From contig NZ_JAJFAX010000008.1 of assembly GCF_019710475.1 (NCBI RefSeq), positions 124,001 to 188,000 of the forward strand: a DNA stretch of 64,000 bases, in the 5' to 3' direction. Both the position numbers and the translations under genes were made by a program. Shown in pieces: positions 51,410-55,685 of the stretch (positions are counted from its first letter, which is position 1; each line of letters starts with the position of its first letter). The notes under the pieces were generated by a model. That model ran no database searches. It worked only from the letters and a program-made list of their open reading frames with translations, and was not told the origin of the DNA. The stretch comes from Glycomyces sp. TRM65418. GTDB lineage: Bacteria > Actinomycetota > Actinomycetes > Mycobacteriales > Micromonosporaceae.

Positions 51410-51500
51410 GCGGTTCCCCTGGGGACGCCGCCAAAGCGGGCGGGCGGGACGGCAACCGCCCGTTCACCGCTCGACCGGCCCCTGTTCATGTTGTCCGGCC

Positions 51501-51533
51501 TTTATGCACGGCTTATCGGTGCCTTAACCTCTG
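51501..51533 (+). promoter_or_regulatory. Triple 11-bp CTTA direct repeat upstream of DUF4956-VTC
   Basis: TTTATGCACGG, CTTATCGGTGC and CTTAACCTCTG lie head to tail at exactly 11-base period. The same array occurs at 55101-55133. Period and orientation match OmpR/PhoB-family binding sites, and an OmpR-type regulator is encoded 3 kb away. Confidence 0.6.
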
Positions 51534-51597
51534 CGCGCCTACGGTTCTCCTCATGCCGCCCCGGCGGCCCCGAACCCGTTCCACCGAGGAGGACCCG

Positions 51598-52197
51598 TTG
51601 AGTCTCGCGCTCGCACTCGCCTTGCCCGTCGACCTGTTCGCGATCACCGTGCTCGCATGGGCCGTCTACTACCAGCGCCACCACCGCACGGACCTGGCGC
51701 TCGCCTACGTGGCGCTGAACGTGGGCGTCTTCGCGGTCTCGGCGCTCATGCTGTCGCAGCAGGTGAGCCTGGGCCTGGCGTTCGGACTGTTCGGGGTGCT
51801 GTCGATCCTGCGGCTGCGGTCCGACCAGATCTCGCAGCGGGACGTCGGCTACTACTTCACGGCGCTCGCACTGGGACTGGTCAACGGGATCGGGGCGTCG
51901 CGCCCGGCGGTCGTGATCGGCCTGAGCGTGCTGCTCGTGCTGACGATGTACGTGGCCGACCATCCGCGCCTGGCGAACCGGGCCCGGCACCGCCTGGTCG
52001 TGCTCGACACGGTCCACCGCGACGAGGCCCGCCTGAAGGCGGACCTGGAGCGGCGGCTCGACGGGACCGTCCGCAAGTTCGAGGTGATCGACACCGACTA
52101 CGTGCGCGAGACGATGACCGTGGACGTCCGCTTCCAGCCGCTCCCGTCGCCGGTCTCCGCGCCCGAGCGCACCGTCCCCCTGGCGAGGACCCCGTGA
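51598..52197 (+). CDS. DUF4956-family membrane protein
   Basis: The 199-residue protein has four transmembrane helices (about 2-22, 36-55, 58-75 and 84-123, the last as a pair). A cytoplasmic C-terminal part with DTVHRDEARLKADLERRLDG follows. It matches DUF4956, often encoded with VTC-domain polyphosphate polymerases. GAGGAGG lies 5 bases before the TTG. An alternative ATG at 51553 would start 20 bases after the CTTA array. Its stop overlaps the next start in GTGA, so the pair is coupled. Confidence 0.85.
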   Translation: MSLALALALPVDLFAITVLAWAVYYQRHHRTDLALAYVALNVGVFAVSALMLSQQVSLGLAFGLFGVLSILRLRSDQISQRDVGYYFTALALGLVNGIGASRPAVVIGLSVLLVLTMYVADHPRLANRARHRLVVLDTVHRDEARLKADLERRLDGTVRKFEVIDTDYVRETMTVDVRFQPLPSPVSAPERTVPLARTP

Positions 52198-52952
52198 GCG
52201 GCTTGGAGGCGTTCGCGGGGATCGGGCTCGACGCGGTGGCGGCCGCCGCGGACCTCCAGACGCGGGTCGACACGAAGTACCTGCTCGCGTCGGACGCGTA
52301 CCGGCGGTTCCGGGGCCACCTCGCGGCCGGGGGCGACTGGGCGTGTCTCGACATCGGCGGCAGGCGCCGCTTCTCGTACGAATCGGTCTACTTCGACACC
52401 CCTGACCTGCTGACGTACCGGCAGCACCGGCAGGGCCGCCGGCGCCGTTTCAAGGTCCGCACGCGGCTCTACGCCGACTCGGGCGAGTGCGCCTTCGAGG
52501 TGAAGGTGAAGGGGGCCCGGCAGGACACGGTCAAGGAGCGGCTGCCGTACACGGCCGCCGACGCCGCCCGGATCACTCCGGAGGCCGCCGAACACCTGGC
52601 GGCGACACTGTGGAAGGCGTACGGCATGGCCGTCCCGCCGGGCCTGGAGGCTCGGTTGCGCACGGACTACCGGCGGCACACGCTCGTGAACGCGGCGGCG
52701 GGCGTGCGCGTCACGTGCGACGAGGACCTGCGCTGCGTCTCGTCCGCGGGCACCGCGGTCGCGCGGCCGGTGTGCCTGGTGGAGGTCAAGTCGGCCCGGC
52801 CCGGCGGCCCGGCCGACCGTCTCCTGTGGGCGATGGGGGCGCGGCCGGTCCCGGTCTCGAAGTACTGCCTGGCGGTCGCGGCCCTGTCGCCGGGAATGCG
52901 CGGCAACCCGTGGGCGCGCGCGATGCGCGAGTGCTTTCCAGGGCCTGGCTGA
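52194..52952 (+). CDS. VTC-domain protein, polyphosphate polymerase-like
   Basis: The 252-residue cytoplasmic protein has the CYTH/VTC tunnel fold signature: TRVDTKYLLASDAYRRF, YESVYFDTPDLLTYRQH, RRRRFKVRTRLY and CAFEVKVKGARQDTVKERLPY, then RRHTLVNAAAGVRVTCDEDL and LVEVKSARPGG. These include the basic and acidic residues lining the polyphosphate tunnel in yeast Vtc4, which makes polyphosphate from ATP. Whether this copy is active, and whether it pairs with the membrane DUF4956 protein, is inferred. GTGA coupling supports a joint complex. Confidence 0.85.
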   Translation: MSGLEAFAGIGLDAVAAAADLQTRVDTKYLLASDAYRRFRGHLAAGGDWACLDIGGRRRFSYESVYFDTPDLLTYRQHRQGRRRRFKVRTRLYADSGECAFEVKVKGARQDTVKERLPYTAADAARITPEAAEHLAATLWKAYGMAVPPGLEARLRTDYRRHTLVNAAAGVRVTCDEDLRCVSSAGTAVARPVCLVEVKSARPGGPADRLLWAMGARPVPVSKYCLAVAALSPGMRGNPWARAMRECFPGPG

Positions 52953-53089
52953 ACACCCCTGGCGGTGCGATGTCCGCCGCTCGCACTGCCGATGTACGAC
53001 GCGCAAGCGGCGCCGAGGCCGCGGAAGACCCCCCGATGCAACGCGGCGAACGGGCCGGATGGCGCCCGGCCGGGAGGTCGAGCCGGGTC

Positions 53090-54343
53090 CTACCCCAGTT
53101 CGAGCCTGATGAGCGCCCCGGTGCCGCCCGGGCCTTGGCCGAACACCAGCTGGCCGCCCGAGGCCGCGGCGGCGCGCCGCGCGATGTCCAGGCCCAGCCC
53201 GGTCGAGCCGCCTTCGCTGCGGCCCCGGTTGAACACCCCCAGGTTCGGCAGGCCGGGCCCCTCGTCGGCGACGTCCACGGTGGCCCCGCCTTCGTAGCGC
53301 GGCGTCAGCCGCACCTCGAACGCGGTGCCGTCGGGGGTGTGCGCGAAGACGTTGGCGAGCAGGGAGTCCATGGCGGCGGCGAGGTCGGCGGCCGACAACT
53401 GCACCGGCAGCGGTCCGGGGGCGAGCCGCACCCGGCACTCGCGGGCGGTGTCCTCGGCGAGCGCGGACCAGAACTCGACGCGCTCGGCCACGACGGCGGC
53501 CGCGTCGCACCTCCCGGCCTCGGCGGGGTTGCGGGCGTCCTGAATGGCGGCGTTGACGGCCCGCTCGACCTCGGCCACGGCCTGCTCGACCGCTTCGCGC
53601 TGCGCGTGGTCGCCGAGCGCCTCGGTCTCGAGCTTGAGGACCGTGAGCGGGGTGCGGAGCCGGTGCGAGAGGTCGGCGACGCGCTCGCGCTCGGCCTCGA
53701 GGAGGTCCTTGATGCGGTCGGCGAGGGTGTTCAGCGCCGTCCCGACCTCGCGCAGCTCCTCCGGGCCGCTCGCCTTCGCCCTGGCCTCCAGGTCGCCGCT
53801 CGCGAGCCGGTGCGACACACCGGACAGGTCGTTCAGCGGTATCAGCAGGACCCGGGAGAACCGCGTCGCCAGCAGCAGTCCGAAACCCAGGAGCGCGACG
53901 GCGATCGCGCCGAGCAGCAGCCATGATTCGGCGACGCCGTCGGTCAGCTGCCGGTCGGTGACGAGGACGCGGATGACGGCGGTGCCCTCGGCGAGCCCGA
54001 CGCCGAAGAGGATCTCCCGCCCGCCGTCGGTCGCGGCCGTCAGTGACCGGCCCCTGGCGGCCAGCTCCACCGCGGGCGAGCGGGGCGCCTCGGCGCCCGA
54101 GGTCGTGCCGTCGGGCCAGAAGACGGTGACCGGGTAGGGCGAGTCCACGTTCTGGAGGGCGGCCTCGACCTGGCCGACGTCGCCGCCGATGATGACCGGC
54201 GTCAACAGCTGGCCCTCCTGCTCGGCGGCGTCGATCGCGTGCTGCGCGGCGCTGTTGCGCAGCAGGATGCCCATCGGGAGCGCGAACGCCAGGAGGATCA
54301 TGGTGGCGGTCGCGGCCACCAGGAGCGTCAGCCGGGCCCTCAC
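53090..54343 (-). CDS. Sensor histidine kinase (HAMP, HisKA, HATPase)
   Basis: The 417-residue membrane protein has TM1 (about 3-27), a sensing domain of about 130 residues with DSPYPVTVFWPDGTTSG, TM2 (ESWLLLGAIAVALLGFGLLLA) and a HAMP segment. The phosphorylation box SHRLRTPLTVLKLE and an ATPase with DSLLANVFAHTPDGTAF, ADEGPGLP and GGSTGLGLDIARR follow. The GTG start overlaps the regulator stop in GTGA. Extracytoplasmic signal unknown. The partner is the adjacent OmpR-type gene. Confidence 0.93.
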   Translation of the reverse strand: MRARLTLLVAATATMILLAFALPMGILLRNSAAQHAIDAAEQEGQLLTPVIIGGDVGQVEAALQNVDSPYPVTVFWPDGTTSGAEAPRSPAVELAARGRSLTAATDGGREILFGVGLAEGTAVIRVLVTDRQLTDGVAESWLLLGAIAVALLGFGLLLATRFSRVLLIPLNDLSGVSHRLASGDLEARAKASGPEELREVGTALNTLADRIKDLLEAERERVADLSHRLRTPLTVLKLETEALGDHAQREAVEQAVAEVERAVNAAIQDARNPAEAGRCDAAAVVAERVEFWSALAEDTARECRVRLAPGPLPVQLSAADLAAAMDSLLANVFAHTPDGTAFEVRLTPRYEGGATVDVADEGPGLPNLGVFNRGRSEGGSTGLGLDIARRAAAASGGQLVFGQGPGGTGALIRLELG

Positions 54344-55038
54344 CGCTCGCCCCCGTCGGTCGGGTCGACGAGTTTGACGCCGACGCCGCGGACGGTGTGC
54401 AGGAAGCGCGGGGCCTGCGCGGTCTCGCCGAGCTTGCGCCGCAACCACGCCAGGTGCACGTCCACGGTCTTGTCGGCGCCGCCGAACGGCAGATCCCACA
54501 CGTCGGTGAGGAGCCGGCGCTTCGCGACGACTTCGCCGACGCGGGCGGCAAGGTAGTGCAGCAGATCGAACTCCTTGGGGCTCAATTCGAGCGCGGCCCC
54601 GTCGAGGTGCGCGGAGCGGCCGCGCGGGTCGATGCGCAGGGGACCGACCGCGACGGTCGCGTCCGTCGGTCCGGCGCCGCCGACGCGGCGCAGGACCGCC
54701 TGGATGCGGGCGTCGAGCTGCTTGGCGGTGAAGGGCTTCACCACGTAGTCGTCGGCGCCGGAGCCGAGGACGCGGACGATCTCGTCCTCGTCGTCGCGGG
54801 CGGTCGCCACGATCACCGGGACGTCCGAGACGCCGCGGAGCATCCTGAGCATCTGCGAACCGTCGAGGTCGGGGAGGCCGAGGTCGAGCACGACCAGGTC
54901 GGGCCGGTGGTCGACCGCGGCGCGCAGTCCGCTCATCGCGTCGGACGCGGAGGCGACCTGGTGGTTCAGGTCGCGCAGGGACCGCAGCAGGGCGGAGCGG
55001 ACGCGCTCGTCGTCCTCGATCAGCAGCAGTTGGGCCAT
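54340..55038 (-). CDS. OmpR-family response regulator
   Basis: The 232-residue protein has a receiver domain with acidic pocket EDDERVR, phosphorylation site Asp52 in VVLDLGLPDLDG and Lys101 in DYVVKPFTAKQL. The C-terminal winged helix (SPKEFDLLHYLAARVGEVV and KTVDVHLAWLRRKLGE) binds DNA as direct repeats. It is coupled to its kinase by GTGA and divergent from the Asp-rich gene, with a triple CTTA array between. It likely controls that gene and DUF4956-VTC; this is inference from the repeat period and layout. Confidence 0.93.
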   Translation of the reverse strand: MAQLLLIEDDERVRSALLRSLRDLNHQVASASDAMSGLRAAVDHRPDLVVLDLGLPDLDGSQMLRMLRGVSDVPVIVATARDDEDEIVRVLGSGADDYVVKPFTAKQLDARIQAVLRRVGGAGPTDATVAVGPLRIDPRGRSAHLDGAALELSPKEFDLLHYLAARVGEVVAKRRLLTDVWDLPFGGADKTVDVHLAWLRRKLGETAQAPRFLHTVRGVGVKLVDPTDGGER

Positions 55039-55100
55039 GGCCGGAATGCTATGCGGCCGAAGTCCTCCGAATCCACCCTCGGAGCGGTGACCTCCGCAGG

Positions 55101-55133
55101 CTTAGAGCGGCCTTATCGCGGTCTTAACGTCGC
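55101..55133 (+). promoter_or_regulatory. Triple 11-bp CTTA direct repeat upstream of the Asp-rich gene
   Basis: CTTAGAGCGGC, CTTATCGCGGT and CTTAACGTCGC form an exact 11-base-period array ending 18 bases before the Asp-rich ATG. The last unit probably overlaps the promoter -10. It matches the array at 51501-51533. Confidence 0.65.
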
Positions 55134-55151
55134 AGCGGGCAGGCTGGTGTC

Positions 55152-55685
55152 ATGCAGAGGAAATGGGTAGTGAGCGGATGGGCCGCGGCCGCCGCGGTCG
55201 CGGTCGCCGCGGGGATCGGCGCGGTGGCGCTGGCGCAGGGCGGGAGCCTCGCGGGCCCCGAGCAGCCGATGCCGGAGGAGGAGGTCGTCTCGGAACTGGC
55301 GAATGCCGACGACGCGACGCCGTCCGCCGCAGCGGACGAGCCGTCCGCGCCCGCTTCGGCGGACCGCTCCCCCACGGCCGAGGCGCCGACGGGGCCGTTG
55401 GAGACCGCGCCGAGCGCGGCCCCGGACGGGCACGTCCTGGGCGGCGACGGCGGCACGTTCCAGGCCGTCTGCGAAGGGGGCCGGGTGCGCCTCGACTGGT
55501 GGGCGCCCGCCCAGGGCTGGAGCACCGGCGCGGTCGACCCCGGACCTGGGACCACGGCCTCGATCGCGTTCACCGGCACGGGTGACGACGACGATGACGA
55601 CGACGGCTTCGTCTACGAGGTCGCCTGCGTCGACGGCGTCCCCGACGCGGCGCTCCGCTCCGACGACGATGACGCCGACGACTGA
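55152..55685 (+). CDS. Secreted Asp-rich protein, target of the two-component system
   Basis: The 177-residue protein has a signal or anchor helix (WVVSGWAAAAAVAVAAGIGAV) and an Ala/Ser/Pro/Glu linker to about residue 95. A small domain with two cysteines (TFQAVCEGGRVRLDWW and YEVACVDGV) and long Asp runs near the C-terminus (seven Asp in a row, then DDDDADD) follow. No family is recognised. The acidic tail could bind cations or keep the protein soluble. Its promoter region carries the CTTA array shared with DUF4956-VTC. Confidence 0.75.
   Translation: MQRKWVVSGWAAAAAVAVAAGIGAVALAQGGSLAGPEQPMPEEEVVSELANADDATPSAAADEPSAPASADRSPTAEAPTGPLETAPSAAPDGHVLGGDGGTFQAVCEGGRVRLDWWAPAQGWSTGAVDPGPGTTASIAFTGTGDDDDDDDGFVYEVACVDGVPDAALRSDDDDADD

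Follow-up and report, generated by a model that had tools for sequence, protein, structure and literature searches.

In a stretch of 64,000 nucleotides from Glycomyces sp. TRM65418 (contig NZ_JAJFAX010000008.1, positions 124,001 to 188,000, forward strand; hereafter the window) we analysed a locus that combines a two-component system, a DUF4956-VTC module and a gene for an Asp-rich protein with two triple direct repeats, which we call sites A and B (Table 1). The response regulator carries receiver and winged-helix Trans_reg_C domains and is encoded in one operon with a HisKA kinase, as is typical of OmpR/PhoB-type two-component systems; the two genes overlap by GTGA. Its recognition region, DKTVDVHLAWLRRKLGETAQ, was identical in all 11 aligned sequences. 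The DUF4956 protein showed 77-90% identity in 10 relatives, and the ten named loci closest to it comprise nine from Glycomyces and one from an actinomycete metagenome-assembled genome. An ATG at position 51553 is an alternative start of its gene. A sequence-only reading of the window had proposed the DUF4956, VTC and Asp-rich proteins as targets of this system. Pfam confirmed the domain identity of the first two; the third is one of a group of homologous short proteins that are secreted or anchored, and neither Pfam nor NCBIfam gave a match that would assign it to a family.

Table 1. Features of the locus and of the second DUF4956-VTC module (positions refer to the window unless a contig is given).
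Feature	Position	Strand	Remarks
Putative weak extra unit 5' of site A, GTTGTCCGGCC	51490..51500	+	CTTGTCC in four relatives
Site A, triple 11-bp direct repeat TTTATGCACGG CTTATCGGTGC CTTAACCTCTG	51501..51533	+	precedes DUF4956-VTC
-10-like hexamer TACGGT	51540..51545	+	exactly 10 bp after 7-mer CTTAACC of site A; chosen by eye
DUF4956 membrane protein	51598..52197	+	Pfam PF16316, E 1.9e-58; TTG start behind AGGAGG
VTC-domain protein, polyphosphate-polymerase-like	52194..52952	+	Pfam PF09359, E 4.1e-28; GTGA overlap with DUF4956 stop
Sensor histidine kinase (HAMP, HisKA, HATPase_c)	53090..54343	-	second gene of the regulator-kinase operon
OmpR/PhoB-type response regulator (Response_reg and Trans_reg_C, Pfam)	54340..55038	-	proposed to bind sites A and B
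Site B, triple 11-bp direct repeat CTTAGAGCGGC CTTATCGCGGT CTTAACGTCGC	55101..55133	+	between regulator operon and Asp-rich gene
-10-like hexamer CAGGCT	55140..55145	+	exactly 10 bp after 7-mer CTTAACG of site B
Secreted or membrane-anchored Asp-rich protein, two conserved Cys	55152..55685	+	first target (predicted)
Second DUF4956-VTC module, L039	G000:C9:20731-21300		plus seven further loci, L040-L046

The sequence-only reading had described two arrays of CTTA or TTTA words with an exact 11-bp period, and its intervals indeed hold three full 11-bp units each. The core of site A (51501-51526) reads TTTATGCACGG CTTATCGGTGC CTTA and has one mismatch to the pattern CTTA-N7-CTTA-N7-CTTA, and that of site B (55101-55126) reads CTTAGAGCGGC CTTATCGCGGT CTTA and has none; the agreement of units 2 and 3 between the sites held on inspection of the sequence. 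At up to one mismatch this pattern matched the window at sites A and B and nowhere else, compared with no match in 100 dinucleotide shuffles. The entire genome of 5.09 Mb likewise contained these two matches, and the reversed control pattern one. The two-unit word CTTAKCGN4CTTAAC also had two exact matches in the genome, which are sites A and B. At up to two mismatches the same word was found 25 times versus 51 times for the reversed control, and a regulon of many sites across the genome was thereby ruled out. At one further place with one mismatch (G000:C12:536077) no gene on the same strand starts behind the match in the filtered list of open reading frames (ORFs).

Next to their rarity in the genome, the sites are conserved in the genus. 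Among the 22 Glycomyces genomes compared, 12 contain the response regulator, 13 a DUF4956 match and 11 a close DUF4956 orthologue. The extended pattern YTTAN7CTTAKCN5CTTAAC, searched with up to two mismatches, yielded 28 sites, namely 22 exact ones, one with one mismatch and five with two. The 23 arrays with at most one mismatch all lie at response regulator loci, two each in the 11 genomes with a close DUF4956 orthologue and one in G016, so that site A is present in 11/11 genomes with the orthologue and site B in 12/12 with the regulator. None was found at this threshold in the 10 genomes lacking the regulator. Hence 12 of the 22 genomes have both regulator and array and 10 have neither, the pattern of co-inherited elements, and the earlier proposal that the neighbouring regulator-kinase pair governs the sites gains support from this co-occurrence in 22/22 genomes. 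The same proposal would have failed had the array been common without gene context, which was the case neither in the own genome nor in the genus.

Fourteen positions (TTA, CTTA, C and CTTAAC) were identical in 23/23 sites. The CTTA letters belonged to the search pattern, yet two mismatches were allowed and 22 of the 23 sites were exact. Outside the CTTA words the two sites differ: unit 1 contains TTCAC at site A and GAGC, GACC, GAAC or AGGG at site B, and the spacers differ as well. In all 23 sites the 7-mer CTTAACN is followed after exactly 10 bp by a -10-like hexamer, which is TACGGT (8), TACGTT (2) or TACCTT (1) at the 11 A sites and CANNCT at the B sites of 12/12 genomes. The repeats upstream of the targets are direct and not inverted, and their 11-bp period lies in the range of 10-11 bp expected for a regulon of this type. 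In PhoB promoters, the operator stands in place of the -35 element at a distance of 10 bp from the -10 element, and the promoter layout of sites A and B resembles this arrangement. In the window, the start codon behind site B begins 7 bases after CAGGCT and, because of this short distance, the site-B transcript would be leaderless or nearly so.

In G016 the regulator (87% identical), the kinase (76%) and the Asp-rich gene (52%) are retained together with site B; site A is gone, and the 10 kb around the regulator locus contain no match to DUF4956 or VTC with E < 0.06. Since the G016 regulator pairs in the regulator tree with that of G013 (90/74), which has DUF4956-VTC, a loss is the simpler reading and the module was probably lost again in this one species. 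Two of the five arrays with two mismatches precede a second Asp-rich gene; the others (G017:C29:122346, G012:C16:73509 and G007:C12:446556) lie away from the regulator locus. This second gene encodes another Asp-rich secreted protein behind the array GTTAGAGN4CTTAGCGN4CTTA in G013, G016 and G020, the only three of the 22 genomes with a close form of it (62-99%), and no two-component system was present in the surrounding ORF lists. Its product is a paralogue of the first Asp-rich protein (39-45% over the matched part). In 3/3 cases the array ends 26 bases before an ATG of the gene, as counted by eye, and GACGCT or GATGCT stands at the expected -10 place with the same geometry as at sites A and B.

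The array was also found with homologous regulators outside the genus. In the class, 98 of 296 genomes contained the regulator at E <= 1e-65, at 116 places including that of the window, with at most nine candidates scored per genome. We analysed 80 of the other 115 loci, binned by identity to the window regulator, and counted an array as near the regulator when it lay, with at most two mismatches, between -20 and +350 of the regulator start. This applied to 30 of the 80 loci, with 24/40 at an identity of at least 65%, 3/12 at 62-65%, 3/20 at 58-62% and 0/8 below. The density was 34 sites in the 29.6 kb near regulators versus 19 in the other 638.8 kb, and all 34 point away from the regulator. 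An independent test used a matrix built from the 23 Glycomyces sites only and scanned over loci of up to 8.7 kb. Its best hit fell in the regulator-side promoter in 23/40, 4/12, 3/20 and 0/8 loci of the same bins. Moreover, the pattern STTRN7CTTARCN5CTTARC was searched in 24 regulator-bearing genomes and 24 comparison genomes, 20 of which lack the regulator according to our regulator search. There were 12 exact matches in the former, 12/12 at regulator loci, and none in the latter. The presence of the array at the corresponding promoter in some of these loci lends further support to the regulon of the neighbouring pair.

In other genera, the regulator-side array is mostly followed by a gene homologous to that of the Asp-rich protein. 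Array and start codon are separated by 25-28 bases in 18/30 loci and by 36-37 in five, where there is room for one more unit; the spacing differs in the remaining seven, where the script took a different ORF or start. Arrays beyond the kinase precede small secreted genes at six loci (L141, L142, L143, L150, L152 and L155), and PepSY was identified by Pfam in 3/3 of those tested. In L146 (G055:C17), one secreted gene is preceded by two complete arrays 63 bp apart. The genome G328, from another family, has an array before DUF4956 and the same gene order as Glycomyces (L279, G328:C45). Its regulator is sister to the Glycomyces regulators on a long branch (96/94), and the regulators of G024 and G234, which belong to the same family as Glycomyces, branch elsewhere in the tree. 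The whole DUF4956-VTC-kinase-regulator-Asp-rich locus of G328 may well have been acquired by horizontal transfer. The gene order is also the same in G289, where two CTTAACC words 22 bp apart are followed after 10 bp by TAGCGT before DUF4956 and the middle unit is absent. The system is one that extends beyond two targets and beyond the genus Glycomyces.

Taken together, sites A and B are a real, specific and conserved pair, very probably the operators of the neighbouring response regulator. We consider it highly probable that they form a regulon of the PhoB/PmrA kind in which this regulator activates both promoters. Upon an envelope signal the kinase would phosphorylate the regulator, which would then bind the CTTA units, spaced by one helix turn, head-to-tail. 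The last subunit would end 10 bp before the -10 element, at the place of the -35 element, and recruit RNA polymerase as at a PhoB-like class II promoter, switching on the DUF4956-VTC operon as well as the Asp-rich gene, the latter probably with a leaderless transcript. The old core of the system, common to other actinomycete families in which PepSY genes would be further targets, may be the Asp-rich gene with the regulator-side site, and DUF4956-VTC may be an added output. What we observe is the presence of the sites, how they are laid out and that they co-occur with the regulator; binding, activation and the signal are inferred.

Several observations weigh against this interpretation. No array faces the regulator gene itself, and autoregulation thus finds no support. 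At an identity of at least 65%, 16/40 loci have no array within two mismatches near the regulator, and L153, L154, L157 and L167 show nothing by the matrix either; the CTTA word is therefore not universal in the regulator family. Among 16 one-mismatch matches of STTRN7CTTARCN5CTTARC, seven lie at regulator loci and nine elsewhere, two of them in comparison genomes. With the short 12-letter pattern and one mismatch, five of the 10 regulator-less Glycomyces genomes gave one match each, five in total versus 24 for the reversed control. Furthermore, the CTTA words stand at the expected place of a promoter, and part of their conservation could come from promoter elements. The preference for activation over repression derives from the geometry, for which the -10-like words were picked by eye.

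If the arrays were instead repressor sites, the regulator would block both promoters until the signal removes it. The last unit lies in the -35 contact region of RNA polymerase, so occupation could block the enzyme, and other OmpR-type regulators do repress from sites in the -35 region. The exact gap of 10 bp to the -10-like hexamer in 23/23 sites speaks against repression, and dependence on an activator would suit the poor -10 words (CANNCT) and the lack of an evident -35 word, which makes this mode improbable. We regard it as hardly probable that the arrays are operators of a different OmpR-type regulator, such as PhoP, with the neighbouring pair as a bystander. OmpR-type response regulators are numerous and cross-talk is common. 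In 8/11 genomes site A has a PHO-like GTTCA 22 bp before (T)TCAC, PHO-like repeats with at most one mismatch number 52 versus 10 for the control in the genome, and one of them precedes a gene whose protein was read as a polyphosphate kinase. Site B, however, has no TTCAC word, the site A of the window lacks the 22-bp GTTCA spacing, and the CTTA array occurs within two mismatches at 0/8 loci of the other DUF4956-linked Glycomyces regulator. Regulator and extended array are co-present or co-absent throughout the genus, and the array accompanies homologous regulators into other families. The PHO-like pair overlapping site A (window 51484-51509) has TGCAC at a spacing of 20 bp in the window, and GTTCA with (A)TTCAC at 22 bp in relatives. 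The repeat before the putative polyphosphate kinase gene, GTTCACCACGAGTTCAC, lies about 24 bp upstream of it (G000:C33:184715, L290). Shared ancestry or chance, that is duplicated DNA or look-alike AT-rich promoter elements, could be invoked for two copies only 3.6 kb apart and is most improbable, as the sites differ outside the CTTA units while 14 positions match in 23/23 sites, and shuffles yield no array.

The proposed operators of the neighbouring regulator can be compared with known systems. The box of PmrA (BasR) in enterobacteria consists of half-sites such as CTTAAT, CTTAAG or CCTAAG, arranged head-to-tail with five bases between them (PMC3973317). Our arrays share with it the CTTA core, the 11-bp period, the head-to-tail orientation and a regulator of the OmpR/PhoB type. 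They differ in having three or more units instead of two, CTTAAC as the third unit and unrelated targets. In addition, the PmrA box of K. pneumoniae lies 170 bp before the start codon (PMC3973317) compared with 25 bp for site B and 26-71 bp, depending on the start chosen, for site A. With 146.2 bits against the PmrA model NF007928 (cut-off 330), the regulator was rejected as a PmrA orthologue. By analogy, the array would only work like a PmrA box, which its CTTA word resembles. Similarly, the PHO boxes of PhoB and PhoP consist of two 11-nt direct repeat units, with GTTCACC in S. coelicolor (PMC4415409; PMC7866108). Tandem head-to-tail units of 11 nt and a PhoB-like promoter geometry are common to both, and the half-site is CTTA here versus GTTCACC there. 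We rejected the sites as PHO boxes: the arrays are made of CTTA words, and a PHO-like word is absent from site B and imperfect at site A of the window. The regulator also failed the NCBIfam equivalog cut-offs for PhoB (164.5 vs 296.2 bits), MtrA (170.6 of 300) and CseB (169.2 of 350). The CutR consensus TAWATAAA (PMC12802291) does not fit as the source of the word, and no motif was found in the available part of PMC10433416.

A secreted protein also belongs to an actinomycete two-component system in the case of HbpS-SenS-SenR of Streptomyces (PMC4991794). Here, by contrast, the Asp-rich protein is a predicted target, for which an accessory role would be a guess. In its homologues, a short membrane segment at the N-terminus is joined by a linker to a domain in which two Cys are invariant across 40/40 aligned sequences. 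A profile of 11 Glycomyces sequences recovered 29/29 others, of which 28 are from other genera and one is the distal paralogue. The E-values, calculated for 10,000 sequences, were at most 7e-5, and for 23 of the 29 at most 4e-13; none of 29 shuffled sequences matched at E <= 10. Apart from a short acidic end, most homologues outside Glycomyces show no Asp-richness, and two tested by Pfam gave no family above the cut-off.

The VTC protein was assigned the fold of the Vtc4 tunnel domain, with a Pfam VTC match above the cut-off and a structure model (pLDDT, the predicted local distance difference test score, 85.3) for which yeast VTC chains fill the first nine places among the PDB matches (lowest E 1.3e-10; TMq 0.56-0.61 and root-mean-square deviation 4.6-16.9 across the nine). 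The link to yeast came from this fold search, as the sequence profile gave no PDB match at E <= 0.01 and three weak Vtc chains at E 0.25-0.98. R82, R83, R85, K87, R89, R91, E197 and K199 were invariant in 15/15 sequences and may include candidates for counterparts of R264, R266 and E426 of Vtc4. Exchange of the latter three inactivates the yeast protein (PMC9911596), and exchange of R264 and R266 was also reported in PMC8749416. As in the eukaryotic VTC complex (PMC9911596), whose tunnel domains are nearest to the VTC model, a membrane protein is involved, here encoded in the same operon. The protein of 252 amino acids differs in having VTC as its only domain by Pfam and no SPX domain. The DUF4956 model, which predicts five helices plus a small alpha-beta domain, is of moderate confidence (pLDDT 72.5, predicted template modelling score 0.44) and had no PDB fold match at E <= 0.001. 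An MgtC-like fold found no support in this model. Because of the fold match and the invariant Arg/Lys/Glu set, synthesis and export of polyphosphate by DUF4956-VTC are plausible. More speculatively, the VTC protein would polymerise polyphosphate, DUF4956 would anchor or export it, and the acidic secreted proteins might bind cations or exert feedback on the kinase.

A DUF4956 gene beside a polyphosphate-polymerase-like gene is also part of the accessory genes cotH-PPP-DUF4956-DUF4832, which adjoin Pel clusters of streptococci and clostridia (PMC7112168). In contrast to our locus, the available part of that article mentions no two-component system or operator array for them. We examined 20 DUF4956 loci of the class with wider flanks. 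In ten of these (L269-L278), DUF4956-VTC is immediately preceded by a kinase and another OmpR-type regulator, 34-37% identical to that of the window over the length of the latter; two (L279 and L283) carry the regulator family of the window, and eight showed no response regulator match in the stretch examined. In L269-L277, which are clusters of another family, three CTCAT-like words with 11-bp spacing were seen by eye just before DUF4956. They are imperfect in L275 and L277, and L278 is weaker. The second DUF4956-VTC module of Glycomyces has a different regulator (33-36% identical to that of the window) adjoining VTC in 8/8 loci. Its DUF4956 promoter contains two to five CATAGG-like words at 11-bp steps, several of them imperfect and the two of L046 counted by eye, before a TATA-like -10 element, and no CTTA array within two mismatches was found at these eight loci. 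Next in L039 comes a divergent gene read as CotH; the strand facing this gene carries CATAGG words as well. The CTTA array as a general companion of DUF4956 was rejected, since among 29 class loci (L239-L267, flanks of about 1.5 kb) it occurs within two mismatches only in G328. In a period test of the 20 DUF4956 upstream regions, a period of 11 reached a summed score of 76 versus 42-57 for periods of 7-10 and 12-16. Singly, 9/20 regions reached a shuffle p < 0.05, and the best-scoring triples of L271, L277 and L283 differ from the words read by eye. It looks as if DUF4956-VTC recurs under apparent OmpR-type control with different half-sites.

A far-reaching and rather doubtful extension of these results would be that DUF4956-VTC is a signal-switched membrane machine that makes polyphosphate and moves it outward, as a counterpart of the eukaryotic VTC complex. 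Unrelated OmpR-type regulators would have gained control of it on at least three occasions, each through an 11-bp direct-repeat array of its own half-site (CTTA, CTCAT and CATAGG), and in Glycomyces its induction along with that of the acidic secreted proteins would be a polyanion response to envelope or cation stress.

The sequence-only reading knew of no described regulon with this composition, and our literature search, with most subscription literature outside its reach, found none either. We conclude that the locus encodes a two-component regulon of the familiar OmpR/PhoB kind with an unusual, new set of targets, for which operator, promoter geometry, regulator and targets are all defined from sequence. 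The CTTA word yields predictions of targets in several other actinomycete families. The little-mentioned DUF4956-VTC module is tied to specific signal transduction systems, which offers a way into the question of when the module is made, and the recurrence of 11-bp arrays with differing half-sites before DUF4956-VTC provides a testable general rule.

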